Positions 1,085 through 56,629 of a stretch of 64,000 nucleotides of DNA are shown piece by piece. The stretch is from NCBI GenBank assembly GCA_002794775.1, contig NBAY01000028.1, forward strand, positions 372,001 to 436,000, read 5' to 3'. Below the pieces are notes generated by a model. That model worked only from the letters and a program-made list of their open reading frames with translations. It searched no databases and was not told the origin of the DNA. Position 1 is the first letter of the stretch. Each line of letters starts with the position of its first letter. A program made the position numbers and the translations under genes. The stretch comes from Porodaedalea pini (Eukaryota; Basidiomycota; Agaricomycetes; Hymenochaetales; Hymenochaetaceae).

Positions 1085-3537
1085 ATGTCGTCCACGACGA
1101 TGGGCACAGACTCCGACGCATTCTTAAACGAGTTCGACTTCAACAGCCTTGGGAATGCAGGCGCACAGGTTGCCGGTGGTGGTCTCGAGAGCGCGAGTGG
1201 TAGCGGTGTCAGTTCTACTTCCGGCTCGAACGCCGGCCCAGGCGGGACTCCGACTCAATTTGGTGACTTCGACTTGGGCGGCACTCTGAACCAGCAAGGC
1301 AGCATGGACCTCGGCGACTTCAACATCTTCGGCGACAAGGCCAACGACGGGCGACGTGGCGACAACGCGATGCCACCGTCAGCCGGCTCGACGCAGGGAA
1401 ATGCGAACAACGTGAACTTTGACGCGCTACAGCAGCTGCTTTCGATGCAGATGCAATACCCTATGTCCGTCGACGGCGCACCAGGCCCAAGCCAGGCTGG
1501 GACATCGAATAACACCAATACAGCGGTGCTGATCGAGCAGCAACTTCGTCTGAACCAGCTCCAGCAACTGCAACAGCTGCAGAACCAGATCTTCCAACAA
1601 CAGGTGAGTGGAGTACTGGATTGGCTTGGGTCAGATATGGTGTTTCGCTACGTTCCACTGAAGGCTAGTGGATCAGTGCTGAGGAGAACGTGTTTGGTTT
1701 TGTGTGCGTTCGGACTATTGTATCTTACTTCGAGTGTATGCGGCGTAGGAGGCTTCTCAGGGCCGAAAAGGTCTGCAGTCCATACCACACCCATCTTAGA
1801 CTTGATACGCTCCCAAAGTCCTTTGTCTCGTAGCAATGTCGAAATTTCACGTCTGACCCAAGATCTCACTCCTTTTGATGCGTTCTGACGACATTTACTC
1901 TACAGATTGAGCTCATTAGCGGACAGAGCAGCTTATCGAACAGTCTTGAACCAACACCACTGCCCACGCCCGCTTTCCGGGATACAAACCAATTTCAAGG
2001 CCTTCCTACACCTGGTATGTTCGAGGTCCCCAAGGTCGGAATAATGCCGAAGCTAATTGAGTCTTTAAATACAGTAAATTCCACCGAACTTCGGCCCCAG
2101 CCTCCACCGAACTTCGTGTCGCCAATGATCCTCCAAAATTACCTGGCACAGCCTGGGCCTGCCACACAGTTCAATACCCCGCATCCGCTTCCGCAAGGCC
2201 CGAGCTCCGCACCTGCACACCTCGCGTTTTCCACGCAGGCGCCGTTGTTATCTCCAGGTGACCTTGACTTCGAGCTTTCGCCGCTCACAAGTCCGTGGCT
2301 CGGCGCCGTGTCCTATCAGCAAGCTCAGCAACAAGCGCAACAACAATCTCAAAATCGGACGCAGAATCTGCCTAAGCGCCGAGGCTCGAAGCGCGGTGCG
2401 TCTAGCAGCGGGGATGATGCGAGTGGGCAGGCGCGGAAGCGCCAGTCTTCTGCGATTCGTGCGACTGCTGGTGGTGCGCGCAAGGCGGCGGCGACGCGCG
2501 GTTCGGCCAGCGTGAGCTCGACGCCTGCGATCCGGCCGCGCTCTAGTAGGAACAGCGTAATGGGTGACGTTGTCGGCGATACGCCGTCTCCTGTCGACTT
2601 GTCGATGCCGCCTCCCGCACCGCCAACGCAGCCTAGTCATAACACCGCTGTTGGTACGCAGCCACCTGCGCCAGCTTCTTCAGGCTCCCCTGCAACGAGT
2701 CCTGCGCTGTCGCCTGTGACCCCGGCAAGCATCATGAACCTCGGACGGCTCGGACTCAGCAGTGGCCTGTCCCCGCCTCTCAATGCAGTTGAGGATCAGG
2801 ATCAGCAAAATCTGGAGAAAAGCAAGGGTAAGGGCAAAAGTAAAACGCCTCCAAGGACATCAACCTCCGGCCCAACAAAATCCATCGCAAAAAAGGCGTC
2901 TTCAACGTCGCTCATCAGCCCCTCCCTCAAGCCGCTGCTCCCAGGCGGGCTCGCACCCTCCTCCGCCGCGCACCTCGGCTCCGCCTCCAACTACACGCAC
3001 CACCTCTCCGGCTCCGCCGCAGCCCTGCACATCGCACCTGCAACGCCGCTCCCACCCCCAGCACCCGCGGTGCGCAAAACCTCACACAAGGCCGCGGAAC
3101 AAAAACGGCGCGACAGCCTCAAAACGAGCTTCGACGCGCTGCGCCTCTTGCTCCCTCCGCTGCCGTTACCGTCCGACGAGAACTACGTGGGCGAGGCGCC
3201 GCTGCCCGGCGCGATGCCCCCGCGCGGCCCGCCCCGCGGCGACGTCGCGGGCCCGAACCGCGCGGTCAGCAAGTTGCAGCTGCTCCGCTGTGGGAACGAC
3301 TTTATCCGGAGACTGCAGGCCCGCGTGGCGCGGCGCGATGAGTATATTGAGCAGCTGAAGGCGGAGGTGCGGGTGTTGAGGGCGCGTGCGGAGGCGAAGG
3401 AGGCGGGCGTCGATGCGATTGCGGCAGAGATTGAAAAGGTGGATCTGGAGAAAGACATTGATGCGGAGGAGGAGAATGCTCCAAGGCTTGGAGGCGCGTT
3501 ATTAGAGGGCGACGAGGCGGACGAGGAATACGAATAG
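1085..3537 (+). CDS. bHLH transcription factor
   Basis: Nuclear DNA-binding protein of about 696 residues. I read three exons: 1085-1603, 1906-2014 and 2075-3537; the sum is a multiple of three. The first half is low-complexity (Gln-rich LQQLQQLQ, Ser/Gly/Pro-rich), typical of fungal activation regions, followed by a Lys/Arg-rich stretch. Near the C-terminus is a basic helix-loop-helix: HKAAEQKRRDSLK carries the His, Glu and Arg-Arg residues that contact an E-box, and helix 2 (VSKLQLLRCGNDFIRRL) runs into a leucine/coiled-coil tail. The loop between the helices is unusually long and Pro/Gly-rich, as in several fungal bHLH proteins. The start was chosen at the ATG of MSSTTMGTDS; an in-frame ATG lies 75 bases upstream. 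The second intron (2015-2074, GTATGT, GCTAAT, ACAG) is 60 nt and free of stops, so unspliced RNA stays open. The exact regulator family is not recognised. Confidence 0.85.
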
Positions 3538-25851: not shown

Positions 25852-25923
25852 GGACTAATAGCTCAGTGGTAAAGCGTGGGATTGCAGATCCTAAGGTCGG
25901 GTGTTCGACCCACCCTTGGTCCT
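25852..25923 (+). tRNA. tRNA-Cys (anticodon GCA)
   Basis: A full cloverleaf can be drawn: acceptor GGACTAA pairs with TTGGTCC (one G-T), D-arm GCTC/AAGC around AGTGGTA with a weak closing pair, anticodon stem TGGGA/TCCTA enclosing TTGCAGA so the anticodon is GCA, a five-base variable loop, and T-arm GGGTG/CACCC enclosing TTCGACC. The gene is intronless and CCA is not encoded. The internal A and B box positions are occupied. A T-rich run near 25977 is a possible RNA polymerase III stop, with shorter T4 stretches nearer the gene. Confidence 0.93.
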
Positions 25924-38273: not shown

Positions 38274-38390
38274 TTCTGCTTTGCATATTTCTTTACACTA
38301 CTTGAAGACCACACGCGCTATAATTATTGGATACCTGAAGTGAAGCAGAAAATAGAAAATAAAAATGCATACGCGGCGTGATGGGCGTTC

Positions 38391-38401
38391 TGTCACTTCA
38401 C
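38391..38401 (+). repeat. 5' target-site duplication of retrotransposon copy 1
   Basis: TGTCACTTCAC, repeated exactly at 44689-44699 on the other side of the element. Confidence 0.85.
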
Positions 38402-38472
38402 TTTCTTCCTACCATCATCATCGACCGTGGGAAAACAGTGTAACCAGCCTCATTTCTTGTTCTCTACTCGCT

Positions 38473-40706
38473 ATGGACAACGGCATGTTGACCAGAGCAA
38501 AAGCGTCTCTTCACAAGACAAAGTCTTTTCGTTCCCTTGTCAATCCCAAGGACCCCACCAAGTGTGAGGAGTGTAAACAGGATCTCCCCTATCACAGTCG
38601 CCAGTGTGTTAGTGGGACCGCCAAGCTATGTGTCACTTGTGGTCGCGACAAGACCTACAACCACGATGACAACGTATGCGCTACAGTACAAGCGAACCGT
38701 GCCAAATGGTCTCCCGATGTCGAGGCGGACGAACATGCCGCCAAACTCCGTAAACAAGGGGACCTCTCCCTGACTCCTGATATCGAATCGCAGAACACCC
38801 TTAAACGTTCGAACTCAGAAGAAGAACATAGGTCTATCCCACCTCCTGCCCGTGTTGACGACGATGCTATGGATGACGACTTGTACATCCCGGACGAGCA
38901 CCCCAGTCAGGCCCCTCAGGTCGACAATGTTATGGACGACATCGATGAAATGACTGATCCGGCCATCGCCGAGAAGGTCAACCTTTCCTTTGCCGATCTC
39001 ACCAAAGAGACCATTAACACGATCAACACGCTCATTTCCCAACCGACGTGGTCATCTGACATGCCCTGGTTCGACGACCCAGTTCGCGCCGGGTCCATCC
39101 TCGCTAATGTTGGATCCAATCTGGTATCCTGGTTAAACAAGTCAAACTCATTGGACGACGAAACCAGCCTCACCAACTCAGCCAACGAAAGCCTGGAAGC
39201 CTTTCATTCCACCTTCCGCATCCATTCTCCCTCTTTTAAACACGTGTTTGAAAATATTTATGTTAACAGTCAAACCATCCGTGACCAAGAAATCACGGAC
39301 ACTATGCATGCCATGTCTCGGTCCATTCAGCACCTTTCCGCAGTTGTTTCTTCTATTTCCGAAAAAACTAACACAATTGAAAAACAGCTTTCTGACGTTC
39401 ATGTTCCAACCATCCAGCACTCGGTTCCTTCTAATACTAACATCAATAAACAGAATAAAATCTTGCCTGACCCAATTGGCGTTCGTTTTGTACACGATCC
39501 TAAATTCCCTCCTCCAGGCCCTATCACCAAACAGCGTGTTCAGACCCCAAAAAATGGAAAATCCGAATATGCAGCAGCCATTGCTAAAACCCGCATTCCG
39601 GGCTCTGGCTACCGTATGACTACGGAGGGCACCATCATCGCACCAGATGGTTACGCCCACTCAGCTCACAACGCTCCTCATGGATCACAGACCACAATTT
39701 ATCACCCAGCAGTTGAATCAGTCGGAGTCGATCAGGAAGGCTTTACCACGGTATCGTACGCCAAGGCTGCCCAAAAGAAACCCAAATCAGTCCCTACCAA
39801 AGTTACCCGAATCACAGAAGAGAACCCCCAAGGGGAAGTCTCAACTGTTCCAATTAACCGGTCTAACGGATCAGTGAATACGCGCGTCCGTAATGTTCGC
39901 CGTATCTTTTTCTCACTCCCAGGCGATCTTGCTGTTTGCCCTTCCACCATTTCCATTAAAAACACAGTACGTGCGGGCCTCAAAGGCAACCCGCTTTTCA
40001 AACATCTTGTGATTCTTAACGTGGAATACACGTCTAACAGCAACCTTTTAATCGCTTTTACTAACATTCACCCTGACTTTGACGCACAATACCACGCTCT
40101 AGTTACCCAACTGAATCGCATCATCAACATCTCTGGGGCAAAGGCATTCACCCCTTCGCCTCAATTCAAAATGGTCATCCCCGGCGTTCCAGTATTCGAC
40201 AAGGACACCAATCTCATCTATTCGGAGAAGGACCTAGCTGACGAAATCTCCTCTCTTCCACAATTCGAAGGATACGAGTTCATGTTCCCGCCCGCTTCAT
40301 GTCCTCCATCAAACGCCTTAATCAACGAGACTACTGCAACGTTTCAGTTGTCCTCAAGGATGATTCTCGCCTTTGTTTTGACCATTTCTTCCTTCATAAC
40401 AACAGATCTGTACCAGTTTTCGGTGTCATCCGCCGACTCGAGGAGATGAAAGCCCGCCCTACGATCAACCAATGCGATAACTGCCATCACTTGGGACACG
40501 CTGCATCGAAGTGTCGCTCAGTAGCACGCTGCACGATTTGCTCTGAGCCCCACCAGACCGCCGTACATGTCGCGAAATGCGCTCCATGCACGGCGTCCAA
40601 CAACCTCCATTGCGACCACTTCGCCCTTTGCATTAACTGCCAGGGCAATCACAGTGCCAGGTCAACGGAGTGTCCAGCTCGCCGCAACTACAGGTCTCCC
40701 TTTTAA
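38473..40706 (+). pseudogene. Retrotransposon copy 1 ORF1 (gag-like), frameshifted
   Basis: RNA-binding protein of the element. The N-terminus has a Cys-rich module (KCEECKQDLPYHSRQCVSG, LCVTCGRDKTYNHDDNVC) that may bind zinc. The middle is Ser/Asn-rich and helical. The C-terminus holds CCHC-type knuckles (CDNCHHLGHAASKC, CTICSEPHQTAVHVAKC, CINCQGNHSARSTEC). Relative to copy 2 a single base is missing near 40290, so the frame from 38473 leaves phase just before the knuckles, which continue in the frame ending at 40706. Confidence 0.88.
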
Positions 40707-40712
40707 TTTCTT

Positions 40713-43700
40713 ATGACAGACACAGTTACTGTTTTTTCCCTTAACATCCGCAACTCCGAACCTACATTCGATTATCTCCTACGTTCTTTTTCAACCACTA
40801 ATTATACCCCAGACATCATCTGTTTTCAGAAAATCCCAGTCATTTCATCGACAGTCCCTTCTAAAACATCTCCTTCCGGTTCTCGAATTCTTCAAATTCG
40901 CAACTCTTATCCCTATACAATCTTTCGTCCATCCCCTTCTTCCAAACCACGTGTTTGTACCTTGGTACACCCGCGAATCATCCATCGGGTCTCGCTATAC
41001 GACTCTGATTCCCCTTCGCCCAATATTTGCGTTATCTCAATTTCTCGCGACGACGCATCCCCTCTCCTATTATGGAATGTTTACAATTCGCCTTCTCTTC
41101 ATGAATTCGAAAACCCTTTTCCTATATGTCGTCTTCCCTCTAACATTTTCACAGGGGACTTTAACAGACATTGCGATTTGTGGTCATTTCCGGCCCAATT
41201 GCACGAATTTTCGAAATCAACAGCCCTCGTCGACTGGATCAACGATAGCAGCTTAATGGTTTGCAACCCTGCCGACCAGTACACCTACTTTAACCGTTCA
41301 AATAATTCTAAAACCATCATTGACCTCGTCCTCGCTTCAGAGGACTTCGCTCCTTATCTTTTGGATCATATTTCCGTTTCGAACAACTCTTTGGACATTT
41401 CATCGGACCACCGACCACTCCTTTTTTCATTTCAATTGGACCTAATCCCCTCTTCTACAAAACCGCCCTTCGTTCTATTCGATCTCATGATCTTCCGGCT
41501 TTTGTTGCCGAATTTTGCGACTCTAATCATTTCTCCTTTTCATTGGCGAATATCCATACACTGGAGGCGCTGGACGACCTTCTTTTTTCATTCCAAACTT
41601 CTTTTTCAAATTTTGCTACCCTGTTTCTCAAAAAACGAAAACTGCGGTCATATTTCGGCCCCAACACTTGGTGGTCCGAAGCATGCTCGAGACTGTATCG
41701 CGAACACTGCCGAAACCCTCACCCGAATCTCACAAACACCTTGACATCGAGATCACTTGCGCCAAAAATGCCTTTTTCGGCGCCCATCTTCAAAAAGCCG
41801 ACACCCAATCCATATGGCATAACCAATATCTTGGCACAGCTCGCCGTCACTCTACCATTGGAGCACTACGTATGGCGAATGGATCACTTACCCTTTCAGA
41901 AGACGACAAAGCGACTCTTTTTTGGGAAACATTTTTTCCCCCTTTACCATCTAGACCAGGGATATCCCGCTCCCAGCCCTCACCAAATTCATTCCCTTTA
42001 TGATGAGCGACATTCACGATGCGATCAGAGGCATCGACCAAGAAACGAGCCCAGGCAACAACCACATCTCCTATAAACACCTCGCGTTGCTTGTCGAACA
42101 CCGCGGTTCATTTTTTGTTGAACTTTTTTCCTTATGTCTCCGACTCGGTCATTTTCCACTATCCTTTAAGACATCTCTCGTCACCTTCATCCCTAAACCC
42201 AAACATTCTGACTTTTCAGTTCCATGGGTGTTTCGCCCCATTACCCTCGTTGACACAATCAGAAAACTTTTCGAACGCGTCCTTTTTAATCGTTTACAAC
42301 CCTTTTTCGAACTCAACAACCTTCTTCCTGACGCCCAACATGGGTGCCAGAAACATCGCTCTTCCCTTACGGCATGCTACGCACTCCTTTCTTCTATTTT
42401 ATCCCAACCATTCATAATTAATTCGGCCGATCATTTCAACATTCTTCACCTGTGACATCGTTACCTTATCACTTCCATCCTTACCGTCGACATTCAAGGT
42501 TTCTTTGATAACATTTCACATCAACGCCTTGTTCAGAAACTTATATCTTCCAACGTACATCCAAACATTATTCATGTCCTCTCATCCTGGCTTTCAGACA
42601 GACCAATTTTGTTTCATTTCAATAATTTCTTTTCCACCCCTTTCATTAAACCCAACAGAGGCGTTTCTCAAGGGTCCCCATTATCTCCTCTCATTTCGAT
42701 CTTTGCTGCTGCAGATGCCATTTTGGCTTATAACTCTCGTTTCGGTCCCGACCGTCCTTTGCTTGCGTATATGGACGACCACCTCCTTTATGCGCGATCC
42801 CTTAGTATTCGCACCAACCTAAAACGCCTTCGTAACCAGTTTCAATTCTTATCTCTTCAATTTCAGAGTCTCGGTCTTTCTATTGACCCAGACGCTATTG
42901 AACTTCTTCATATCCTTCCACACAGACGCTTTGCATCCATTACTTTTCGCTCATTTCTTCAAGGTTCTCCATCTTCCTCTAACGCATCCCTGTCATTACC
43001 CAACAATCGCGTCATTCCCCCTTTGTTGCATTTAACCTGGCTAGGCATAGTCTTTTCTTATGACCTTTCGCCTAATCTCCATTTTATATCTCGGGCGAAC
43101 AAAGCCCTTTCCACCCTTCACCAGCGCTCCTTCTTGTTCAATTGCGCAAACGGCGCATATTTCCAATACGTCAGACTTTTATATTTTGGTTTAATTCGCT
43201 CAGTTGCCACTTATGGCGCTGTCCTTTTCCCTGACTCTACCCTCATTTCCATCGTCCTTCAGCCAACTCAAAAACATTTCTTTGATCGCATTTTTCACAA
43301 AAACATCAACTCATCCGTTGCGGAATCGTTCTTATCATGTCCACCTCTTCCCCTTTTCATTCGCTACCTTTCTCAACGTTTTTTGTTATCATATTTCTCC
43401 TATTCAAATCACAAGTCGATGCCAAAAACATATTTAATGTCATCTCTCCTCCCGAATGTACAAGTCCCGAAATCCTTTCCCTTTCCTACATTTACCCAAG
43501 TCCATTCACGCCTTATAATGACCCCTATTTCTTCTTCTGCCCAACGCAATCGCACCATTCGCGATTTTAATTCTTTCTTTTTACACCCCCTCCTTACCAA
43601 TATTTCATCTTTACAGATGGCTCCATCATACCTCAGGCTGACGGCTCTAACACTGGTGGCCACGGATTTGTTATCATGCATGATCACAAGGAACTTGCTG

Positions 43701-44535
43701 TCTTTTCTTCAGCAGCGCACTCTCGCTCGAACATCTTGTTTGAGGAGCAGGAAGCGCTCATCGCAGCTATGCGTTGTATCTCTCTCTTATTGGCGAAATG
43801 CTTCACCCCCATACACATACATATCGTTACCGACTCGCTTAATTGCGTCGAGCTCATCTTTTCCAACGACACTCGGCACGCGGAATTCATCATAACATTC
43901 CGCCGCCTCTGCGGCATTTTTCTTGCCCTCCATCACGAGGCCTCACACATCACTATCCAATGGCTCCCTTCCCACAGGGGAATATTGGGCAATACCAAAG
44001 CCAACAAACTCGCAAAAGACACCGCTACCAAGCCCGATCGCGTACCGATCCCAGATTCATTACCCAATCTGAACGCCCAAGTACAGCTCGATCTTCTTCG
44101 AGACTGGAAGAGCGACATCGTCAATCTTCGTGGACATCGTTCAATCCTCGAACCGTCCTCGTTCATCCTTAACCCAACGCGATCTTTCGCCCGTTCTTGA
44201 AGCTTTCCCCAAAGAAAAAGATACACTGCTCAGTTCTTTCCCGCACCGCCAACTTAATGCTGAACGCGCTCGATCTGCATAATCGAAATCTCGAACCCCG
44301 GTGCCCAGACCCATTGTGCTCTAAACATGATGTCCATCACATCCTCAATAGCTGTCCTTTCTTTTCTTTAGTTCGAAAAGGCCTTTTTCATCAACGTTCT
44401 CTCCCATTAACTTTTATGGAATGGTTTCGTCCAAATAACTTTCTTTTACTATTAAAATTTGCTTATTTCTCTTTCCGCCGTCCTCCCGACAGCATGCCTC
44501 TTTTATCTGATTTACCACCCTCCTTTGACCTTTAG
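40713..44535 (+). pseudogene. Retrotransposon copy 1 ORF2 (endonuclease-RT-RNase H), decayed
   Basis: Starts MTDTVTVFSLNIRNSEPTF. The AP-type endonuclease shows DIICFQ, GDFNRHCDLWS and SSDHRPLLFSF. The reverse transcriptase has FIPKPKHSDFSVP, FRPITLVDTIRKLFERVL, RGVSQGSPLSPLISIF and the active-site AYMDDHLLYA. RNase H at the C-terminus has EEQEAL, VTDSLN and HRGILGNTKANKLA, and a final Cys/His-rich CPDPLCSKHDVHHILNSC. The frame breaks near 41458, 41725, 42000, 42455 and 42600, and again near 43395, so it is not functional as it stands. Confidence 0.88.
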
Positions 44536-44688
44536 TTATCATCTTTACGATTTCCCTATAACAAACATTACAACTAGTTCCACGTTTAGCCCATCACAAT
44601 TCTCGTGCACTACGTAGATTTGTTGCGTTTCGTTTTCTCTCCTTAGCGTTTGGGCGTCTGTTAGCAGTAGATAGCAGAGTATTATAAA

Positions 44689-44699
44689 TGTCACTTCAC
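44689..44699 (+). repeat. 3' target-site duplication of copy 1, ending at CAC of CACGTG
   Basis: TGTCACTTCAC again, directly followed by GTG, so the uninterrupted target read TTCAC^GTGCG. The CACGTG (44697-44702) is intact here, 278 bp upstream of the KEN-box gene start. Confidence 0.85.
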
Positions 44700-44979
44700 G
44701 TGCGCGTACTCGAGCTGCAACAAAACACGGTCTCTTGCCTTTCTAGGCTCATTAGCTAAACAGCAGAATTAGAAGCGCGTGGCTACAGCGCTGAAACTCT
44801 CTCAACCTCAACATCCACGACGACCAGTCCGCGCTCCCTCCTGTGCCATCCCGGGTCGTCGTTGTATTCATCCTTTTTGTTGTCGGGCTCACTCCGCTCA
44901 AACTCTCTCAGCGCTATCTCAACACCCCCTACATCCACCTCGCGCAGCCCCGACCACACCGTCTTCATCACACCATACC

Positions 44980-46120
44980 ATGTCCGCCAGATCTTTCACC
45001 GTCTTCCGGGACGCACCTACCGCGAAACCACCTACATTGCGTCCTCTCGGGCGTTCTGCGTCAGCTGCCGCGGTGCTCAGCACATCCCACCTCTCAGAGA
45101 ACGGCATTGTGTCTCTGCCGGAGAAGGAGAACCTGCACCCATTGACGAGTCTCGGCACCAGGTCCGCGCCATTGGGAAAGAAGCGCAAGGCGTCAGAGAG
45201 CTCCAGCGTGCTCGCTACTAAAGTTCTCGCCGTCGCCGAGGCATCCGACACGGCTAAGTCAAAGCCCAAGCGTACAGATCTCAAGCGTAAAGCGTCCTCT
45301 CAGGCAGCTTCTGGGAGGACCAAGCTTAAGCGAGAGAACTCGAAGAAAAATGTTGAGGATAAGGTGCAGTCTGCCATCGAGACTGCTTCCTCGTCATCTC
45401 GGAAGACACCTTCCCGGGCCGGGTTGCGCAGCTCCCCGACGACGTTCCTTGAACCCATCATGGAGGAAGCTGCTACCCAGGTTGCAGACGAAGAAAAGCT
45501 CAGCTCAGATACCCAGTCACTTGTGCAGGCGGTGATTGACTCCCGATGCTACGAATTGACGGTCTCTCCCCTTGCGGACATCTCCGGCGCCTACCTTCAG
45601 TCTTCCGAGCCCAAGAAGGATGAAGCCAAGGACGAAGATCTCCTCGAATACCGTACGGTAAAGGAGGTTAGTGCATCGAGCTAATTGAGGTAGTTGGCAC
45701 GAGCTGATATGCAGTTGGCCTTTTTTTGAAAAGGAGTCGGGTTTTGCGACGCAGATTCGGGACTATTTTCTGTCTGAGGGCTTGCGTGCGGGCTCGGAAT
45801 CCTCCGCTCCGAGCTCGACAAACATCGCAACCTCTCTCTTTGGCGTCGCCGATGACTTTGATGGGCGTGACACTGCCGGTTATCTTGTCTTAAACTCTGA
45901 AAGCAGCACGGAAAGCGCTGTCCCATTGACGCCAAAGAAGCCGCACCGTCTCGTACGCAGCTTGTCGCTTCCGATCAACCCGAGCACGGAGAGCGCAAAG
46001 GACAAGGAGGATGTGCTCCCGCCATCTGGCCCTTTAATGCTATCCACACCCGAGCGTAAAGAGCTCTACGCTACGTTTACATTTACGACCCCGAAATCCT
46101 CTCCCGCGCGTACCACGTAA
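44980..46120 (+). CDS. KEN-box protein, possible cell-cycle regulator (securin-like?)
   Basis: Not securely recognised. Two exons (44980-45666, 45734-46120) give about 357 residues starting MSARSFTVFRDAPTAKPPTL. Near the N-terminus is SLPEKENLHPL, a textbook KEN box; RTDL further on fits a minimal destruction-box RxxL. A Lys/Arg/Ser-rich basic region follows (KSKPKRTDLKRKAS), then a more conserved-looking stretch VIDSRCYELTVSPLADISGA and, after the intron, SGFATQIRDYFLSEGL, then TPKK and TPERKELYATFTFTTP. The 67-nt intron uses GTTAGT and a GAAAAG acceptor. KEN plus RxxL suggests an APC/C substrate; securin is one possibility by layout only. An in-frame ATG at 44779 would add 67 less plausible residues. 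Confidence 0.6.
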
Positions 46121-47900
46121 ATCATCTACGCGAAGCGCTCGGCGATGCACATCCTGTGCCTTCATCGTTAATGATTTTCTTGTCCATCACCATAATTCTG
46201 TTTACATACAACCAATCCACACAGCAAAAGGACACCAGGTTCGAGGCACATTGCCCAGATACAGCGGCGGCTCCTCATCTCAGCATTTGCTTGCAGCGCA
46301 AGCAAACATTCAGACTGCAGTCCCCATCAGCATACGCATGTCGACAACTATATTTGCGTATGCGTATGCTACCTCAGCGGAGTCAGTTTATGCCGCGTAC
46401 CAAGTTTGTCCTACTTTCTAGTCCCCTCTCCATTGGCGTCCGTTCTTGTTTCTATATATATTTCGTTATACCGTTTTGCATAACAGATTCGCATATTCCC
46501 CATCCACACACGCACATTCGCAAGGCCTCTTCACATTTGTTTGATGTACCCGCCGACCTTTTTTTCTTGTGACATCGCATATCATTTCTTTTGCACTTGG
46601 TACAGTCTTTTTTGGTGTTCATTTACTTCTCTTGCATTTTTTTCCCGCAATGGATTGCTTGCTTTAGCTATGTTCGGTTTCTACTCTATCCACGTAGGTT
46701 CTTCACGTCCTGCTTGTGGAATTACATATGCCGACTGTCTCCTCATTCCTCTAACCACTATTTGTCGCACTTTGTACATTGTATCAATATATTTACAAAC
46801 AATCGCTGTGCCCCCACAAGTTGCTCTTTCTCACTTTGGTGATTCCGATTCCGAAGCTGCGCCGCAATGTGAGGTCCGTAGGTGGTTGAAGTCTTGTTAC
46901 GATGAACAATGACATTAATTATTTGGCTTCTAGTTATTTTAATGACGCGTCGCGACGCGTTTCTCTCACGTGCATTGATGGAGTTGACACGTGACTAGGA
47001 CTTCCAACCGGTGCGACTTTGCAATGTCTACCTCGAACTTCTACTCGCTATTGCCTTCCGCAACTGAGACTTGAAGGGAATGTTAAGATATTTACTGTCA
47101 ACACTCTTTAGAAGAAAGGAATTTGGAGGTGATGCACGTCGAATCCAATAATCTCTCTTGCGTCACGGTGGCCGTTGACACCGTGCTCGTCAAGGGTCTG
47201 AAAGGCATTGCGTTGATCTTTAGCCGCCCTTGGACTGTCCCTTCCCTGACCCAGCTGTAGAACACATCGTCTTCTGCAACATGCAATGTGCAGCTTGTTT
47301 TAGTCTCTTCTCTTCTCCCCAACTACAATCCATGCTTCAACTCATCCTCAACGCATGACGAAAGATGAAGACAGGAATCAGGAACATTTTTTCCACTATA
47401 CCACCGGCCGCTGGCTATCTTGAAGGCTAGAGAAGGCTGAAGAGCACTATACCAAGTTCAAAGTCGATGTTCTCAGAAAAGTCACTGCATCTGCAGTTGA
47501 TGCGAAGTCTTGCCGAGGAAGGAGGCGCCAAGGAGGATGCACAAAAGTTTTGCTCTTCGCTCTCGATAACGGCGAGCAGGTCGTAGGAGGTCTTTGCGCG
47601 GACTCTGGTGGAGGGACCAGACAACACGCAACATGCCATCACCTCAAAGTGACGCAGCGACGGCGGAATACGTCCGCAATCGACTTCGTGTGCTCGTTCC
47701 TCGCGTGCTTGCTTGGTGCACCGACCTGCAGCTGTGAAACGAGAGACCACCTCGATTGGCAAGTTCGCCAAAGTTGACAAGAAACGAAGTTGCTTCTACT
47801 CGCCGTCGTTCGAGCCGAGCGCGCACACCACACTTCTGAAACGATCATGATCATGCCGCGCCTCGTACCATCGGTCCCGCAGCTTACGCGCCTTAGACTC
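46121..47900. other. Gene-poor, decayed stretch
   Basis: No intact gene is supported. On the minus strand a frame between about 47921 and 47427 reads MARIAVDESKARKLRDRWYE, then a stop, then FLSTLANLPIEVVSRF, which could be a worn exon chain, but I cannot place it in a family. A palindrome of two ACGCGT boxes and two CACGTG motifs lie at 46945-46993. Confidence 0.35.
46945..46993. promoter_or_regulatory. Clustered ACGCGT palindrome and two CACGTG motifs
   Basis: ACGCGTCGCGACGCGT (46945-46960) is a perfect 16-bp palindrome built of two MluI cell-cycle boxes. CACGTG follows at 46967-46972 and 46988-46993. The same pairing of double ACGCGT and CACGTG occurs near 10207-10232. It looks like a promoter, yet no clear gene lies beside it now. 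Confidence 0.4.
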
Positions 47901-48019
47901 GTCTACGGCGATTCTAGCCATGCGAGCATGTTTATGTCTCTGGCAAAGAGTTAGCCAAAGGAGAAATTGAGATTTCAGCTGTCAGAGACTGGTCATGCAC
48001 GTTGATTCTTCCACTGTTT

Positions 48020-48760
48020 ATAGCTGCGCACTGGCCGAAGTTTCAAGTACTCTTCAGCACATTGGCTTCCGTCAGACTTCGAGCTTGACTCAGACTTGAT
48101 TCCGGACAGCTTCGATGTATCCTTAGACGACGCTGAGCTGTTAGTATCCGTGCTGACCTCGACCTGCGAAGGTCTCACAACTAATACGGAAAGCATGGGC
48201 GGAGAAGAATCGCAATGTTATCAGGCTATGTCGATCAAGATCGCGAGTTGATTGAGATGATGGTGGATTTTCCCGGTCGCATTCGGCGAGACGACCTCTA
48301 TGCTCCCGTATGTAAACTTCATTTCCTTGTTTTCCTGCCCCTCTCTGATCAACCACTACTCATCGGCCGAAATCCCGTGACGACTAACTCCAAGCCTGCC
48401 TCTTACGCGTCGCACACAAGTGGGACGAACTCGCACCGTTTGTATCCTTTCCTCCGTGCTTGTGCTTTTCAAGAGCTGACTTGGCGCACATTCGAGGTGA
48501 GACGTTCATCTGGCAGAAGAGTCCAGAGAACATAGCAGTGCTGCGCGACGTGCTGGAGATCCAGCGAGGGAGTGCTGGGCGCATCCGGATGATTTCGTGC
48601 TTGTGGCGGCGACCAACGCGGAATTACTGACTCAATTTGTGGCTGCAGGAGGACCTAATGAGGAGCGAGACCGACTGGTATGCTATTGGCCGTTTGACCG
48701 GAAGATGGAGATGGTTCAGATTATGATATGGCTAGAAGATGATTGTTATTGTAAAGATGC
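48020..48760 (+). pseudogene. Possible decayed gene of unknown family
   Basis: Fragments in different plus-strand frames look coding: SDFELDSDLIPDSFDVSLDD (near 48067), GYVDQDRELIEMMVDFPGRI (near 48219), LLRVAHKWDELAPFVS (near 48398), LAHIRGETFIWQKSPENIAV (near 48481) and HPDDFVLVAATNAELLTQF (near 48580). A GTATGT donor follows the second fragment. The pieces do not join into one frame with plausible introns that I can find. It may be a broken gene or one with badly placed exons; the family is not recognised. Confidence 0.3.
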
Positions 48761-49114
48761 CCTTCTTTCTTAATATTCGATTCTCGTGTTGCAGAAAGAT
48801 CGTGATTATTTATTTATTAACTACATGCGTGATATCAGAAGCTTGGCCGTATGTACAAGGGAAGGGCCAGTCTATGGACATTTTCAGATTTGAGAACAAC
48901 ATGACGATGAATGTTTTGGCGAAACGCGAGTGAAAACCTGTCTCATGGGACAACAGAAGAGACAGCGAAGATATGAAAAAAAATGCGAGTATGTAGCCAA
49001 ATGATGGAGTAATTCAGTGCGAGAAACCTAGGAATGAAGCTAGACGTCCCCAGAGATACGAAAACGAAACGTTGGCAACAAGTCCGACAAATCATGATCA
49101 TGAAAGGAACAACT

Positions 49115-50123
49115 TCAGGTAGTCTGCATCAGGGCGTCTTCCCCATTCATACGCGCAGCTGTGTATTCCTCCATTTCGCGATCAAGGTCTGCAATGCTCT
49201 TCTTGACGCGCTTAGGGCCTTTCTTTTGGCGTTTCCGCGGAGGCGTGGGAGCGAGCGGTGCGTTCATAGAGGCTCGTTCGGCTAGTGTTGCTTGACGTCT
49301 GCAAAAGATCGGATTATTATGTTATGCCCTGCCTTGACTCATTCAATACTGACTTGGTGCCCATTGGATTAGCCGGGTGGATAGTTGTGACTTTCGTCTG
49401 TTGTGTTTGTTGATCGGTATTGGAAAATGATGGACCAAGACGATCAAACAGCGACTTCGGCTTTTGTTGTGCTTTTGGACCGTTCGGTGTGCTCGATGGT
49501 AGTCGTGCTGTGTCAACGTCTCGGTCTATAATGATCTCTAGTTTAATGGCGCGCTCTGTCGTGTTCGATACGCACCCATAGCGAGTGAGACGGGTTCAAC
49601 AATGAGGATGGAAAGTCATCACTTTAGTGCGAAATGGAAGGAAATAGGAGAAAGACTGCGCACTTCCGTCGATGACTTTCCCATTGTACCGGCCGCGTGC
49701 CCTCGACGCGTCGACCCCACGCGTGAACGCGACGACTGCCATTCCACGCGGAAAACCCTTCACAGTGTAGACCATAAAAGATTCTCGTACGTTCACAGGC
49801 CCAATTGTCTTCTTCATCAGGTCCTAATGATAAAAATGACGAGTGGTAAGACACAAAAAAGAGGGAAGAGAAAGAACGCGTCTCCGAGACTGAGCGGTTC
49901 ACAAGGACTGAGTCCAGGGACCTCGTATACATACCACGATTTCTGCCTCTGAGACGTCAAACGGTAGGTTGCTGAGCAGAATTTTGCTCCCGGGATCACT
50001 GCTTCCTGCGGGTATGTTTCGTGCGCGCCATGCGGGCGCTGGCTGCACCACGTTTCCTGTTAATTTGCCCTTTGCACCACCATGGTACTGCTGACTGCGC
50101 GTTGCTGCACGCGTAGAAGACAT
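49115..50123 (-). CDS. YRA1: mRNA export adaptor ALY/REF (Yra1/Mlo3)
   Basis: Nuclear RNA-binding adaptor of the TREX complex that hands mRNA to the export receptor. Four minus-strand exons start at 50123 with MSSTRAATRSQQYHGGAKGK. The RRM reads KILLSNLPFDVSEAEIV (RNP2), then DLMKKTIGPVNV and MVYTVKGFPRGMAVVAFTRG (RNP1 region), KVIDGKRAIKLEIIID. The C-terminal end IADLDREMEEYTAAR is the conserved UAP56/Sub2-binding motif. Basic Arg/Lys segments flank the RRM. Junctions such as GGAA|GTGCGC and the GTATGT donor after the first exon are clear. Retrotransposon copy 2 sits 114 bp upstream of this start codon and separates it from the PITH gene, its former divergent partner. Confidence 0.9.
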
Positions 50124-50225
50124 TATTCCTCCCTTCGTATGTCTCTCCGAGGTCCTGAGCGGTCCGGAGAGAAAGAATTGAAGTGCAAAAGAGCTCGAAG
50201 GGGAAGCAGGCTAGAATTACTGCAC

Positions 50226-50237
50226 ACATATAATCAC
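50226..50237 (+). repeat. 5' target-site duplication of retrotransposon copy 2
   Basis: ACATATAATCAC, repeated exactly at 56521-56532 after the element. Confidence 0.85.
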
Positions 50238-50308
50238 TTCGCTCCTACCATCATCATCGACCGTGGGAAAACAGTGTAACCAGCCTCATTTCTTGTTCTC
50301 TACTCGCT

Positions 50309-52543
50309 ATGGACAACGGCATGTTGACCAGAGCAAAAGCGTCTCTTCACAAGACAAAGTCTTTTCGTTCCCTTGTTAATCCCAAGGACCCCACCAAGTG
50401 TGAGGAGTGTAAACAGGATCTCCCCTACCACAGTCGCTCGTGTGTCAGCGGGACTGCCAAGTTATGCGTCACTTGTGGTCGCGACAAGACCTACAACCAC
50501 GATGACAATGTATGCGCTACAGTACGAGCGAATCGTGCTAAATGGTCTCCCGATGTCGAGGCGGACGAACACGCCGCCAAACTACGCAAACAAGGGGACC
50601 TTCCCCCGACTCCTGATATCGAATCGCAGAACACTCTTAAACGTTCGAACTCAGAGGAAGAACATAGGTCCATCCCGCCCCCCGCCCGACTTGATGACGA
50701 TGCTATGGACGACGATCTGTACATCCCGGACGAACACACCAGTCAGGCTCCTCAGGTCGACAATATTATGGAGGATATCGATGAAATGACTGATCCGGCC
50801 GTCGCCGAGAAAGTCAATATTTCCTTTGCCGATCTTACCAAAGAAACCATCAACACGATTAACACGCTCATCTCCCAACCAACGTGGTCATCTGACAAAC
50901 CCTGGTTCGACGACCCAGTTCGTGCCGGGTCTATCCTCGCTAATGTCGGATCCAACCTGGTATCCTGGTTAAACAAGTCAAACTCACTGGACGACGAAAC
51001 CAGCCTCGCCAACTCAGCCAATGAAAGTCTGGAAGCCTTTCATTCCACTTTCCGCATTCATTCTCCCTCTTTTAAACATGTGTTTGAAAATATTTATGTT
51101 AACAGCCAAACCATCCGTGACCAAGAAATCACGGATACTATGCACGCCATGTCCCGGTCCATTCAGCACCTCTCTGCGGTCGTTTCTTCTATCTCCGAAA
51201 AGACTAATACAATTGAAAAACAGCTTTCAGACGTCCATGCCCCAACAGCCCAGTGTTCGGTTCCTGCTAATACTAATACCAACAAACAGAACAAAATCTT
51301 ACCTGATCCAATTGGCGTTCGTTTCGTACACGACCCCAAGTTCCCTCCCCCAGGCCCTATTACTAAACAGCGCGTCCAGACACCGAAAAACGGAAAAACA
51401 GAATATGCAGCTGCCATCGCTAAAACCCATATCCCGGGTTCTGGCTATCGCATGACGTTGGAAGGCACCATTATCGCACTGGATGGCTACGCCCACTCCG
51501 CACATAACGCCCCTCAAGGTTCCCAAACCAAAGTTTACTACCCACCCGTTGAAGCCGTCGGAACGGATCGGGATGGGTTTACAACTGTCACGTACGCTAA
51601 AGCGGCTCAGAAGAAACCCAAACCCACTCCTACCAAAGTGGTCCACGTTACTGAACAGAACCCTGACGGGGAAATTTCTACTGTTCCAATCAACCGGTCT
51701 AATGGATCGGTCAACACCCGTGTTCGAAACGTCCGTCGCATTTTCTTTTCTCTTCCCGGCGACCTTGCCATTCGCCCATCCACCCTGTCCGTTAAAAACA
51801 GTGTTCGCGCAGGCCTTAAGGGTAACCCTCTTTTTAAACATCTTGTTGTATTGAACGTGGAATACACCACCAACAGCAATCTTCTGATTGCCTTCACTAA
51901 CATTTGTTCTGATTTCGACGCCCAGCACAGTTCACTCGTTGCCCAATTTAATCGCATTATCAACATCAGCGGCGCTAAGGCCTTTACGCCCTCACCGCAA
52001 TTCAAAATGGTCATCCCAGGTGTCCCCGTCTATGATAAGGATACCAAACTAATCTATTCAGAGAAGGACCTCATCGACAAGATATCCGCCCTTCCGCAGT
52101 TTGAAGGCTATGAGTTCATGTTTCCCCCCCATTTCATGTCCTCAATCGAGCGCCTAAATCAGCGCGACTTTTGCAATGTATCGGTCGTTCTCAAAGACGA
52201 TTCGCGACTTTGCTTCGACCATTTCTTCCTCCACAACAACCGGTCCATACCCATATTCGGAGTTATTCGTCGCCTCAAAGAGATGCGAGCTCGCCCAACC
52301 ATTAACCAGTGTGACAACTGTCACCACCTGGGACATCCAGCCGCGAAATGCTGGTCAATTGCTCGTTGCGCAATCTGCTCCGAACCGCATCACACCGCCA
52401 TGCACGTCGCCAAGTGCGCTCCATGCACCGCGATCAACAACCTTCAATGCGAGCACTTCGCTCTGTGCATTAACTGCCAGGGCAATCACAGTGCCAGGTC
52501 TTCGGAGTGTCCAGCTCGCCGCAACTATCGCTCCCCCTTTTAG
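50309..52543 (+). CDS. Retrotransposon copy 2 ORF1, intact gag-like RNA-binding protein
   Basis: An uninterrupted frame of 744 residues beginning MDNGMLTRAKASLHKTKSFR. The N-terminal Cys module (CEEC, then LCVTCGRDKTYNHDDNVC) is followed by a long helical/low-complexity middle, the conserved-looking NTRVRNVRRIFFSLPGDLAI and FRAG-like KNSVRAGLKGNPLFKHLVV segments (an RNA-binding fold in the position where LINE ORF1 proteins carry one), and C-terminal knuckles CDNCHHLGHPAAKC, CAICSEPHHTAMHVAKC and CINCQGNHSARSSEC. It is likely to bind the element RNA. No intron signals are seen, as expected for a retroelement. Confidence 0.9.
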   Translation: MDNGMLTRAKASLHKTKSFRSLVNPKDPTKCEECKQDLPYHSRSCVSGTAKLCVTCGRDKTYNHDDNVCATVRANRAKWSPDVEADEHAAKLRKQGDLPPTPDIESQNTLKRSNSEEEHRSIPPPARLDDDAMDDDLYIPDEHTSQAPQVDNIMEDIDEMTDPAVAEKVNISFADLTKETINTINTLISQPTWSSDKPWFDDPVRAGSILANVGSNLVSWLNKSNSLDDETSLANSANESLEAFHSTFRIHSPSFKHVFENIYVNSQTIRDQEITDTMHAMSRSIQHLSAVVSSISEKTNTIEKQLSDVHAPTAQCSVPANTNTNKQNKILPDPIGVRFVHDPKFPPPGPITKQRVQTPKNGKTEYAAAIAKTHIPGSGYRMTLEGTIIALDGYAHSAHNAPQGSQTKVYYPPVEAVGTDRDGFTTVTYAKAAQKKPKPTPTKVVHVTEQNPDGEISTVPINRSNGSVNTRVRNVRRIFFSLPGDLAIRPSTLSVKNSVRAGLKGNPLFKHLVVLNVEYTTNSNLLIAFTNICSDFDAQHSSLVAQFNRIINISGAKAFTPSPQFKMVIPGVPVYDKDTKLIYSEKDLIDKISALPQFEGYEFMFPPHFMSSIERLNQRDFCNVSVVLKDDSRLCFDHFFLHNNRSIPIFGVIRRLKEMRARPTINQCDNCHHLGHPAAKCWSIARCAICSEPHHTAMHVAKCAPCTAINNLQCEHFALCINCQGNHSARSSECPARRNYRSPF

Positions 52544-52549
52544 ATGCCT

Positions 52550-55500
52550 ATGAAGGAGTCTATTTCGGTTTTTCCCTTAATCTTCGCAATTCAGTTCCTA
52601 CCTTTGACTATTTACTTCGCGCTTTCTCTTCCAGTCATTCTGCCCCCGACATCATTTGTTTTCAGGAAATCCCTACAATTCATTCAATTGTTCCTTCTAA
52701 ACTTTCTTCATCCGGTACCCGCGTTTTTAATCTATGCAATTTTACTCCCTATATTGCCTTTCAACCTTCTTCTTCCGAGAAACCCAGGTGTTGTACGCTG
52801 ATACACCCTCGCATCATTCACCGTGTGTCCCTTTATACTCCTGGCTCGTCATCCCCTAATATTACGGTCACCTCAATTTTTCGAGGTGACTTATCCCCTC
52901 TTTTGCTTTGGAACGTCTACAGTTCCCCATCCCTCCACGAATTCGAGAACCCCCTTCCTTCTCTTGACCTTCCTTCTAACATTTTTATTGGGGATTTTAA
53001 CCGCCATGCGGACCTCTGGTCTTTCCCAGAGCAATCTGCTGCTTTCTCACATTCGACAGCTCTCGTTGACTGGATCAACGAGAATCGTTTAATTATTTGC
53101 AACCCCCCTTACCAACATACTTATTTCAACCATTCATCCAGGTCTAAAACTATCATTGACCTTCTCATCGCCTCAGATGATTTCGCTCCTTCCCTCTTAG
53201 AACGTGCCTCTATTTCAGACCCTTCCCTCGACATTGCATCAGACCACCTCCCTATTCGATTCTCTTTTGACGTCAATGAATTGGCCGCTCCCCAACAACA
53301 CCCCCTTCGTTCAATTCGTTTTCGAGATTTACCCTCATTTATAGGGGAATTTTGCGATTCTAACTTATTCCCCTTTTCATTAACGGGCATCGAATCCCCT
53401 AAGGCACTGGACGACCTTCTTTTCTCTCTTCATTCAACCCTATCTGACTTTGCCATTTTCTTCCTACACAAGCGAAAACCTCGATCTTACTTCAGCCCCA
53501 ACAATTGGTGGTCCGAAGCATGTACAAAACTTTACCGCGATCACTGTCGAAACCCACGCCCCGAGTCTAAAACGCTCCTAGACACGGAAATCACCCGAGC
53601 CAAAAATGTGTTTTTTGGTTCGCGTCTTCAACAATCCGACACGCAGTCTGCCTGGCGCAATCAGTACCTAGGTATGGCTCGCCGCTGAGCTCCAATCGGC
53701 ATGCTCCGCATGTCAAACGGGTTATTCACCCTGACAGAATACGACAAAGTGTCCCTCTTCCGCGAGATGTTTTTTCCCCCGTTATCGCACACTCCAGAGG
53801 TCATCCCTCTTCCCGACCTTTCTGAGTTTCATCCCATCGAATTGAAGGACATACATGCGGCCCTTCAGGGCGTCGATCGCGAAACGAGTCCTGGCAACAG
53901 CCACATCTCGTACAAACATTTGGAGCTCCTTATCGAGCATCGAGGTCAATTTTTCGTGGATCTTTTCACTTTGTGTTTGAAAATTGGTCACTTCCCTTTC
54001 CCTTTTAAAACGTCACTCGTTACCTTCATCCCCAAACCCAAACGTTCGGATTTTTCTGTCCCAAGAGCGTTCCGGCCAATCACTCTGGTTGACACCATAG
54101 GAAAACTTTTTGAATGCATTCTCTTCAATTTCCTTCAACCCTTTTTTGAACTCAATAACCTTCTTCCCGACGCCCAACATGGGTGCCGGAAGCATCGTTC
54201 TTCTCTGACCACTTGCTATTCTTTACTTTCAACCATCTTATCCCAACCTTTCATTAAGAGCAGCGGCGAACAGTTCAGCGAATTACACCATCATCACCGC
54301 TGCTTGATTACTTCGATCCTGACCATTGACATTCAAGGTTTTTTTTGACAATATTTCTCACAATCGCCTTCTTTCAAAACTTATTCATTCCAAAGTTCAT
54401 CCCAACATCATTCGCGTTCTCTCGGGCTGGCTCAGAGACCGGCCCATTTCGCTTTCTTTTAATAATTTCGTTTCTTCTCCATTTGTCAAACCCAACCGTG
54501 GGGTTCCCCAAGGGTCCCCATTGTCGCCTCTCATTTCAATATTCGCTGCAGCCGATGTTATCATGGCCTATAATTCTCGTTTCGGCCCAGACCGACCTTT
54601 ACTTGCCTACATGGACGATCATCTTCTTTACGCTCGTTCACTCTCCATTCGCACCAATTTGGTGCGTCTCCGCAAACAATTCCAATTCATTTCTCTTCAA
54701 TTCCAATCCCTTGGTTTATCCATTGATCCAGACGCTATTGAACTGCTTCACATCCTCCCTCATCACAGAGTCGCAAATTTCACCTTCCAATCCTTTTTAA
54801 CGGACTCTCCTTCATCTTCTAATGCGGCATTGTCTTTACCAAACAACCGTGTTGTTCGCCCTTTGCGCCATCTTACTTGGCTGGGTGTCATTCTTTCCTA
54901 TGATTTGTCTCCCAAGCTTCACTTTGAATCCCAGGCCAACAAAGCTCTTTCTACCCTTCACCAACACTCCTTTCTTTTCAATCGGATCAACGGCGCATAT
55001 CTTCAGTACGCGCGCCTTTTGTATTTTGGTTTAGTCCGTTCAGTCACCATTTATGGCACCATCCTCTTCCCCGAGTCTTCTCTTCTTTCAATTCTTCAAA
55101 AAACCCAACATCGTTTTCTGCACCTAGTTTTCAGTCGTAACACTCATCCAGGTGTGGCGGAATCCTTTATATCCTGCCCACCTCTTCCACTGTTCATTCG
55201 GTCCCTGTCTCAATGATTTCTTCTTTCCTATTTCGCCCACTCTACACATAACCCTTCCCCACATCAATATTTAACGTCTTCGCTTCTCCCCAATATTACG
55301 ATCCCTAAGGCTGTTTCTTTCCCTAGTTTTGTCCCCATTCATTCACATCTTATCATGACTCCTATTCCTTCATCTTCGCAACGTCAATACGCTATCCGCA
55401 ATTTCAACTCTTTCTTTTTACACCCCCCTCCATACCAATATTTTATTTTTACAGATGGCTCCATCATTCCCCAGGCCGACGGCTCCCTCAATGGCGGCCA

Positions 55501-56374
55501 TGGTTTCGTCATTATGCACAATCACCAGGAACTCGCTGTCTTTTCTTCAGCAGCGCACTCTCGATCAAACATCTTGTTTGAAGAGCAGGAAGCGCTCATC
55601 GCAGCCATGCAACGTATCTCAACTCTCCTTTTGAAATGCTTCACACCCGTTCACATCCATATAGTCTCGGATTCACTCAATTGCGTCCAGCTTATCTTTT
55701 CTAATGACGATCGGCATGCGGATTTTATCATCCTTTTCTGCTGTCTATGTGGGATCTTCCTTGCCCTACACCACGTCGCCTCGCATATTACTGTCCAGTG
55801 GCTCCCATCCCATCGTGGAGTACTAGGCAATTCTAAAGCTGACAAGCTGGCTAAAGACACTGCTACCAACCCACACCACGAGACCATACCGGGATCGCTC
55901 CCTAACTTGACGGCGCAAGTACAGCTCGACCTCGTTCGTGACTGGAAAGCCAATATCATAAATTTACGCGGACATCGCTCCATCCTCGAGTCGTCATCGT
56001 TCATCCTTCACCCAACGCGATCCCTACACCCGTTTTTGAAGCTTTCTCCAAGGAAGAGGATACATCACACAGTTCAATCACACGCTGTCAGCCTGATGCT
56101 GAACACGCTCGATTTGCATAACCGAAACCCCGTACCGCGTTGTCCAGACCCGTTGTGCTGTAAACATGATGTCCATCATATTCTTAATTGCTGTCCTTTT
56201 TTCGCTTTTGTTCGAAATGGCCTTTTTCGTCAACGATCCTTGCCCTTAGCTTTTGCTGAATGGTCTCGCCCAAACAATTTTCTCCTTCTCCTAAAATTTG
56301 CTTATTTTTCATTTTGTCGCCCTCCGGACAGTATGCCCTTACTATCTGATTTACCGCCCTCATTTGACCTTTAG
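52550..56374 (+). pseudogene. Retrotransposon copy 2 ORF2 (endonuclease-RT-RNase H), mutated
   Basis: Nearly complete, with few breaks. Endonuclease motifs are DIICFQEIP, GDFNRHADLWS and ASDHLPIRFSF. The reverse transcriptase has FIPKPKRSDFSVP, FRPITLVDTIGKLFECIL, GVPQGSPLSPLISIF and AYMDDHLLYARS. RNase H has FTDGSIIPQADGS, EEQEAL, VSDSLN and HRGVLGNSKADKLAKD, then CPDPLCCKHDVHHILNCC. Compared with copy 1 there is one T too few near 52570, a TGA at 53686, one T too many in the T8 run at about 54341, and a TGA at 55214. All other segments stay open, so decay is recent or mild. Confidence 0.9.
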
Positions 56375-56520
56375 TACTGATCCCTATCCCTATCCCTTGC
56401 TACGCTTTTCACTCCTAGTTACCAAACACCAGCATTCACGCTCTACGTAGTCTTTTCCTGTCTTGTTTTCGGTTTAAGTGCGGTTGGCGGTCTGTTAGCA
56501 GTAGATAGCAGATATTATAA

Positions 56521-56532
56521 ACATATAATCAC
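56521..56532 (+). repeat. 3' target-site duplication of copy 2, ending at CAC of CACGTG
   Basis: ACATATAATCAC followed by GTG; the unoccupied site read AATCAC^GTGAGG. The restored CACGTG is about 95 bp upstream of the PITH gene start. Confidence 0.85.
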
Positions 56533-56629
56533 GTGAGGCCCTCTTCTCTTCTCTCCCACAAACATCTCGGCCTCGTTAATTCCAAGTGCTAACCGATTAC
56601 TTCCTAATACACTCCTCTTCATTCTGAAC

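Follow-up and report, generated by a model that had tools for sequence, protein, structure and literature searches.

Insertion of a fungal non-LTR retrotransposon lineage appears to be directed by the E-box CACGTG

A 64,000-nucleotide stretch of the Porodaedalea pini genome (contig NBAY01000028.1, positions 372,001 to 436,000; 'the window' below) contains two copies of a non-long terminal repeat (non-LTR) retrotransposon, each of which interrupts the E-box hexamer CACGTG at its centre. A sequence-only reading of the window had proposed from these two junctions that the E-box directs insertion, and had named a lack of CACGTG enrichment among further copies as the outcome that would speak against it. 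Collecting copies from the whole genome gave the opposite result. Copies lie at one position relative to CACGTG, with a fixed 11 bp target-site duplication of the form N8+CAC and a second-strand cut at CAC^GTG; the enrichment holds for both of two diverged families and for an 856 bp non-autonomous relative, and some E-boxes have been used more than once. From these sequence comparisons we are nearly certain that insertion of the lineage is E-box-directed. Taking the interpretation as a whole, we consider it probable that a lineage of the apurinic/apyrimidinic endonuclease (APE) type inserts by target-primed reverse transcription (TPRT) at CACGTG, with a mild preference for (G/T)CACGTG(A/C), and that the word is read by a complex containing the product of open reading frame 2 (ORF2).

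Results

CACGTG at element 3' ends

The genome surveyed comprises 53.27 Mb in 201 contigs. The 3' word of the element (family 1), GTTAGCAGTAGATAGCAG, gave 237 matches with up to three mismatches, against 42 for the reversed word, and the 5' word gave 105 matches against 0. We read the 3' ends at 100 of the 237 places (14 exact, 85 with one mismatch and one with two), anchoring each on TTATA and remaining blind to CACGTG; three of the 100 anchors contained one mismatch. The hexamer at offset +10 was CACGTG in 79 of the 100. Eight pairs of places had the same flanks (L040/L112, L045/L108, L082/L091, L089/L106, L098/L123, L102/L119, L116/L122 and L118/L128). These are duplicated haplotypes or segmental copies kept in the assembly, and merging them left 92 distinct sites, of which 73 have an exact CACGTG 8 bp past TTATAAA. 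The offset statistics were computed for the 93 sites of a first deduplication, before a shift-tolerant rerun merged L118 with L128: 73 were exact, when about 0.018 would be expected, 15 had one substitution and two had two (log10 P about -251). The agreement between the two window junctions, which had been judged unlikely to be fortuitous, is thus far beyond chance. Other offsets in the same flanks yielded one exact CACGTG at each of ten positions, two of them being 1 bp shifts (+9 and +11). Genome-wide, the pattern TTATAAA-N8-CACGTG occurs 198 times and its reversed form once.

The motif itself shows no general enrichment, as judged by 10,184 occurrences in the genome, or one per 5.2 kb (13,436 for the reversed word GTGCAC), and by 17 in the window, where base composition predicts 15.9; the near-chance frequency in the window had been described correctly beforehand. 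The base 5' of the motif is G or T in 60 of the 73 exact sites and the base 3' of it is A or C in 62, preferences that are mirror images of each other. The (G/T)CACGTG(A/C) preference is modest (Fisher P = 4e-4 against 29 E-boxes outside elements, both strands counted, a sample that may contain a few hit sites). In a sample drawn from the listing of the 198 matches, and overlapping the first, G or T preceded the motif in 81 of 99 distinct spacers.

Target-site duplications

Matching 5' and 3' ends by position yielded 55 candidate pairs, and 54 of these were read. In all 54, representing 49 distinct sites, the 11-mer at the 3' end is repeated 3–13 bases (50 tallied) before the 5' word; 46 of these duplications are perfect and eight have one mismatch. 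The final three bases are CAC in 48 of the 54 duplications at the 5' end and in 47 at the 3' end, and an exact CACGTG is present at 39 of the 54 3' sites. The cut position CAC^GTG first suggested for the second strand proved right. The architecture is N8+CAC at the 5' end, a pyrimidine-rich spacer of 3–13 nt, CTACCATCATC ... TTATAAA, eight variable bases, CAC and GTG. By eye, the two termini of the element are unlike each other in copies 1 and 2. The spacer (TTTCTT, TTCGCTTC and others), which lies between the duplication and CTACCATC, differs among copies; it may be untemplated, or may come from variable transcript starts.

Both window copies conform to this plan (Table 1). The duplication of copy 1, TGTCACTTCAC, was found exactly where it had been described, and GTG directly follows both 3' duplications. 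That of copy 2 was found in place, with its length corrected from a 12-mer (starting at 50226 and 56521) to the 11 bp CATATAATCAC: the extra A could equally be the last A of TTATAAA, and 11 bp therefore fits both copies. The motif had also been said to be rebuilt beside a downstream gene in both cases. The rebuilding was borne out at both junctions, and the neighbouring genes were not: copy 1 is followed by a + strand open reading frame whose first ATG is 278 bp away and which has no Pfam match, and no convincing gene lies immediately downstream of copy 2 among the listed open frames.

The motif adjoins the element 3' end in nearly all copies read, as it would if CACGTG were a part of the element, or were made during insertion, rather than being the target word. 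We find this scarcely credible, because the eight bases between element and motif vary, because N8+CAC stands at the 5' end too, there without GTG, and because CACGTG occupies the same place in unoccupied, diverged paralogues of one target (see below). The paired duplications rule out the motif as part of the element.

Related elements with the same target

A second family, about 65–67% identical to family 1 in matched parts, lies tail-to-tail with one family 1 copy. Of 211 candidate places for it, 40 were scored. Among those listed, 31 matches besides the query locus extend to the 3' end, and 20 of these were fetched. CACGTG stands at +10 in 18 of the 20 (17 by script, and L210 by eye, since the anchor window missed it) and CACGTT in the other two; with one doubled site removed the count is 17 of 19. 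The single 5' end examined, on contig C35, bears the matching 11-mer.

An 856 bp element on C164 has end words in common with the long element and sits in an E-box with an 11 bp duplication. Of 88 candidates for it, 40 were scored. On the contigs covered by the 100 pattern matches listed (of 198), 16 of the scored candidates reach or nearly reach the 3' end, and nine of these coincide with TTATAAA-N8-CACGTG. In the remaining seven the tail, the spacing or the motif differs, alternatives that are indistinguishable by that pattern; the one at C1:291355 stops exactly 10 nt short of a CACGTG. The 856 bp element behaves as a non-autonomous partner. No support for long and short elements joined at end pairs of 6.7–9.0 kb (L071, L073, L092, L097, L111 and L126) was found among the 40 scored candidates. 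Separately, a dispersed repeat on C1 (L218–L221, at C1:158022, 170899, 171672 and 197117) contains two CACGTG exactly 11 bp apart (CACGTGACATGCACGTG).

Repeated use of E-boxes

Two tails oppose each other at one CACGTG in seven places (pattern with at most one mismatch), against none for the control. Known element tails flank the motif on both sides at C4:529067, C31:474324 and C35:459423; a two-sided arrangement is probable at C11:365440, and the remaining three places are unconvincing. At C11:365440 the 3' end that opposes the family 1 tail (L223) is different, with GCGAATTATATA toward the E-box, and may represent a third family with the same target. We found one head-to-tail junction (tail-N8-CAC-5' end), at C4:542291-542325, 13 kb from the tail-to-tail site on that contig and with the same spacer except for one base; it is possible that this junction is a duplication by recombination instead of a repeat hit. 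End pairs 12.4–19.4 kb apart, 19 in number, were considered as head-to-tail arrays and rejected, the expected junctions being present in 0 of 20 internal stretches. These copies of 12–19 kb (L171–L190) contain foreign central sequence, partly resembling a Ty3/gypsy-like polyprotein by eye, and nested insertions are the likely explanation.

Homologous targets can hold different elements. One holds the long element on C124 and the 856 bp element on C164, with homologous flanks seen on both sides; another, judged from the 3' side only, holds family 1 on C128 and family 2 on C24. The 5' end of the C24 copy was not found in the stretch fetched, and the single matching tail on C24 points to an independent hit there, rather than to a later hit beside a family 1 copy. 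Two diverged paralogues (75–77%) of the C124/C164 target are unoccupied and retain CACGTG intact.

Copies in an assembly are survivors and not fresh events, and the pattern might in principle arise if insertion were wide and only the insertions in E-boxes were retained. This we think very improbable. Selection would fix neither one base and one offset (73 sites at +10, and one each at +9 and +11) nor an 11 bp duplication; moreover, homologous E-boxes hold different elements, and the sites that depart from CACGTG are mostly off by one base.

Element proteins and classification

By its ORF2 domains, its duplications and its variable 5' junction, the element is an APE-type non-LTR retrotransposon (long interspersed element, LINE). 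Pfam matches in copy 2 ORF2 are to PF14529 (E = 1.7e-16), PF00078 (E = 3.2e-14) and PF00075 (E = 3.6e-9), the last being the RNase H domain. Both PDB profile and fold matches place the endonuclease with those of L1, TRAS1 and R1Bm; the structural model has a predicted template modelling score (pTM) of 0.82. Asn151, Asp204, Asp232 and His233 never vary in an alignment of 11 family endonucleases with five distant proteins, in which the conservation of Glu40 and Asp149 is at least 90%. CCHC motifs are visible by eye in ORF1 of both copies, with no Pfam match; in copy 1 these CCHC-like knuckles lie close to the C-terminus, and the N-terminus is Cys-rich. The reading frames of both window copies are broken, and the copy 1 endonuclease has Lys at the position of the catalytic Glu. 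Among 30 matched loci, both long frames are open in some copies. A Rfam scan of 225 nt of copy 2 for a hepatitis delta virus (HDV)-like ribozyme at the 5' end returned one chance-level, non-HDV match (E = 0.82).

A protein search with whole ORF2 gave only five distant matches (21–26% identity), and a search with the reverse transcriptase region gave 172, the best at 32% and ranging from 22% to 32% among the 120 listed. The named matches among these 120 are mostly fungal (Fusarium, Penicillium, Verticillium, Austropuccinia and others), at 22–30% identity, with one from an insect. Neither search found a close relative of the element.

Elsewhere in the window there is a tRNA gene at 25852-25923 on the + strand (Rfam RF00005, 59.9 bits). 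In its first 300 residues, the product of a kinase open frame at 27891-30608 matches Sanghuangporus baumii and Phellinidium pouzarii proteins at 91–92% identity, and Phellopilus nigrolimitatus has a further match at 89%; S. baumii and P. nigrolimitatus belong to the Hymenochaetaceae.

Table 1. Features of the two element copies in the window
Feature	Position	Strand	Remarks
Copy 1 5' target-site duplication	38391..38401	+	TGTCACTTCAC (N8+CAC)
Copy 1 non-LTR retrotransposon	38402..44688	+	7 nt TTTCTTC spacer, then CTACCATCATCATCG, to terminal TTATAAA
Copy 1 ORF1	38473..40706	+	frameshift-broken; open frames 38356-40449 and 40242-40706
Copy 1 ORF2	40707..44535	+	several broken frames, colinear with copy 2 endonuclease, reverse transcriptase and RNase H
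Copy 1 element 3' end TTATAAA	44682..44688	+	
Copy 1 3' target-site duplication	44689..44699	+	TGTCACTTCAC
Copy 1 3' junction, rebuilt CACGTG	44697..44702	.	
Copy 2 5' target-site duplication	50227..50237	+	CATATAATCAC
Copy 2 non-LTR retrotransposon	50238..56521	+	
Copy 2 ORF1	50309..52543	+	open frame; no Pfam match over cut-off
Copy 2 APE-type endonuclease frame	52474..53688	+	PF14529, E = 1.7e-16; catalytic Glu, Asp/Asn and Asp/His motifs intact
Copy 2 reverse transcriptase	53689..55216	+	PF00078 in two broken frames; second match above curated cut-off, first below
Copy 2 RNase H frame	55217..56374	+	PF00075
Copy 2 element 3' end TTATAAA	56515..56521	+	
Copy 2 3' target-site duplication	56522..56532	+	CATATAATCAC
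Copy 2 3' junction, rebuilt CACGTG	56530..56535	.	

Discussion

How the E-box might be read

When the element is read on the + strand, its 3' end abuts the duplication's left edge; under TPRT, as described in PMC2881922, this places the first nick on the bottom strand. By that mechanism the bottom, primer strand would be nicked 8 nt beyond the E-box and the element RNA copied from this nick; the top strand would then be cut at the centre of CACGTG, and fill-in would give the 11 bp duplication. Because the first cut would fall outside the motif, a complete CACGTG is retained on the 3' side of the element, where it could still serve the host, and the site can be hit again. The step of which we are least sure is that the ORF2 endonuclease complex would itself read CACGTG and measure both cuts from it. 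Two features of the junctions, a cut that falls within the word and a nearly constant spacing, lead us to favour reading by this complex, and on them we incline to the view that a protein of the element reads CACGTG directly. For the complete course of events, in which the ORF2 complex reads the motif, nicks 8 nt away, cuts at the centre and rebuilds the E-box, rehits occur in either orientation, and host E-box control is perhaps carried to the element or kept for the neighbour, the chances seem to us evenly balanced. In R2 (PMC5035012) the bottom strand is cut at a strictly fixed place and the top strand at a variable one, whereas here both cuts look fixed.

Alternatively, a host class-B basic helix–loop–helix (bHLH) protein of the Cbf1/USF/MAX type, bound to CACGTG, might recruit the ORF1 or ORF2 protein, so that the endonuclease cuts at a fixed distance and the host protein does the reading. 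We regard such tethering as a possibility, although a rather unlikely one. Ten HLH-domain matches are present in the genome (some perhaps haplotype doubles), one of them within the window, and the flanks of the occupied motifs differ from those of the 29 sampled genomic E-boxes. A first nick 8 bp off would presumably fall at the edge of a bHLH footprint. The second cut, in contrast, is at the exact centre of the motif, beneath the bound protein: each cut has a position exact to the base, and one is within the word, where a bHLH dimer would be expected to cover the DNA. Pfam detects no HLH domain in the element proteins of copy 2. TRE5-A of Dictyostelium is a non-LTR element. Tethering has been proposed for it, with an interaction between its ORF1 protein and TFIIIB subunits in vitro (PMC9012585); its duplications are of 10–16 bp, against 11 bp in 54 of 54 copies here. 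The HLH match in the window belongs to a host gene at 980-3537 on the + strand (HLH within 1879-3534; PF00010, E = 2.4e-8). The His-Glu-Arg pattern typical of CACGTG binders is present in its basic region. The presence of this gene and of two E-box insertions in one window is probably a coincidence.

Several findings weigh against E-box-directed insertion by the ORF2 complex, or limit it. The conserved word is at the second cut and not at the first, and endonucleases of the APE class usually read the bases around the first nick. The first nick has no strong sequence of its own, and the reading may therefore be done elsewhere in the complex or by a protein of the host; the bases favoured beside the motif are like those at the sites of some bHLH factors. 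Over 50 pairs, the base outside the left edge of the duplication was C in 21, G in 15, T in nine and A in five (uncorrected P = 0.008), and no other position beyond the duplication was strongly conserved. The endonuclease model is only moderately confident (mean predicted local distance difference test score, pLDDT, 76.9). A search with 14 of the 54 paired sites, joined, turned up no clean empty allele. Finally, 19 of the 92 sites lack an exact CACGTG at the offset: 14 differ by one substitution and two by two, the exact CACGTG of L104 is displaced by 1 base, one copy of the L118/L128 pair is shifted while the other has a substitution, and L124 is without any CACGTG-like word. At some inexact 3' sites, such as L084 and L128, the 5' duplication still ends in CAC, indicating that the motif changed after insertion. 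At L053, L063 and L082 the odd base is common to the 5' duplication, and these sites therefore differed before insertion. The CACGTG rule is thus strong, but not absolute.

What sets the lineage apart is that it lands with base precision on a regulatory word present about 10,000 times, and that its target regenerates. Three questions thereby become open to test: by what means an APE endonuclease complex recognizes a word that lies apart from its first nick, whether an RNA polymerase II regulatory motif can serve to aim a mobile element, and how repeated insertion into E-boxes affects fungal gene control. If direct reading is true, an E-box would persist beside each new 6 kb element, and host control may pass to the element or stay with the neighbouring gene. 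Builders of insertion tools, too, would be interested in a compact enzyme able to place long cDNA at a six-base word.

Comparison with known systems

Most known non-LTR elements with target specificity insert into repeated sequences, among them rDNA, small RNA genes, telomeres and microsatellites, or in the vicinity of tRNA genes. Members of the R1 and Tx1 clades, which include R1, TRAS and SART, have targets in multicopy genes or repeats. They resemble the present lineage in combining an APE-type endonuclease with target specificity (PMC4640811), and our endonuclease model lies near TRAS1 and R1Bm; the target here is, in contrast, a six-base regulatory word at about 10,000 sites. In the literature searched, which was available in part and outside which most subscription papers and Repbase reports lay, we found no earlier report of a CACGTG-directed non-LTR element. 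The kind of element is familiar; its target, CACGTG, forms a new class.

Fungal non-LTR elements of the Tad1, Inkcap and Deceiver clades, reportedly defined by Novikova et al. in 2009, are comparable in that the named reverse transcriptase matches of our element are mostly fungal; the accessible portions of the literature on them mention no E-box target. CNL1 and MoTeR are likewise fungal non-LTR elements with a target preference, but they are R2-like and lie at telomeric repeats, whereas the element described here has an APE-type endonuclease and CACGTG as its target (PMC12810828).

In TRE5-A, too, integration tracks a motif, in that case a promoter motif read by the transcription machinery, and repeat hits occur at one site (PMC9012585). 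TRE5-A differs in landing about 50 bp from its site with duplications of variable length, while both cuts are fixed here and one is in the motif. The closest functional analogues that we found appear to be the ingi/L1Tc clade retroposons of trypanosomes (ingi, RIME, L1Tc, NARTc and TSIDER1), as described in PMC3820030. They too occupy dispersed sites with a short motif and a fixed-length duplication (12 bp in their case); short non-autonomous partners share their site, and where copies stand in tandem one duplication lies between them. A 5' hallmark of 77–79 nt (Pr77) is common to the ingi clade. Their motif, however, precedes the element, spans the first nick and has few fixed bases, whereas in P. 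pini, a host far removed from trypanosomes, the motif is a six-base palindrome at the second-strand cut.

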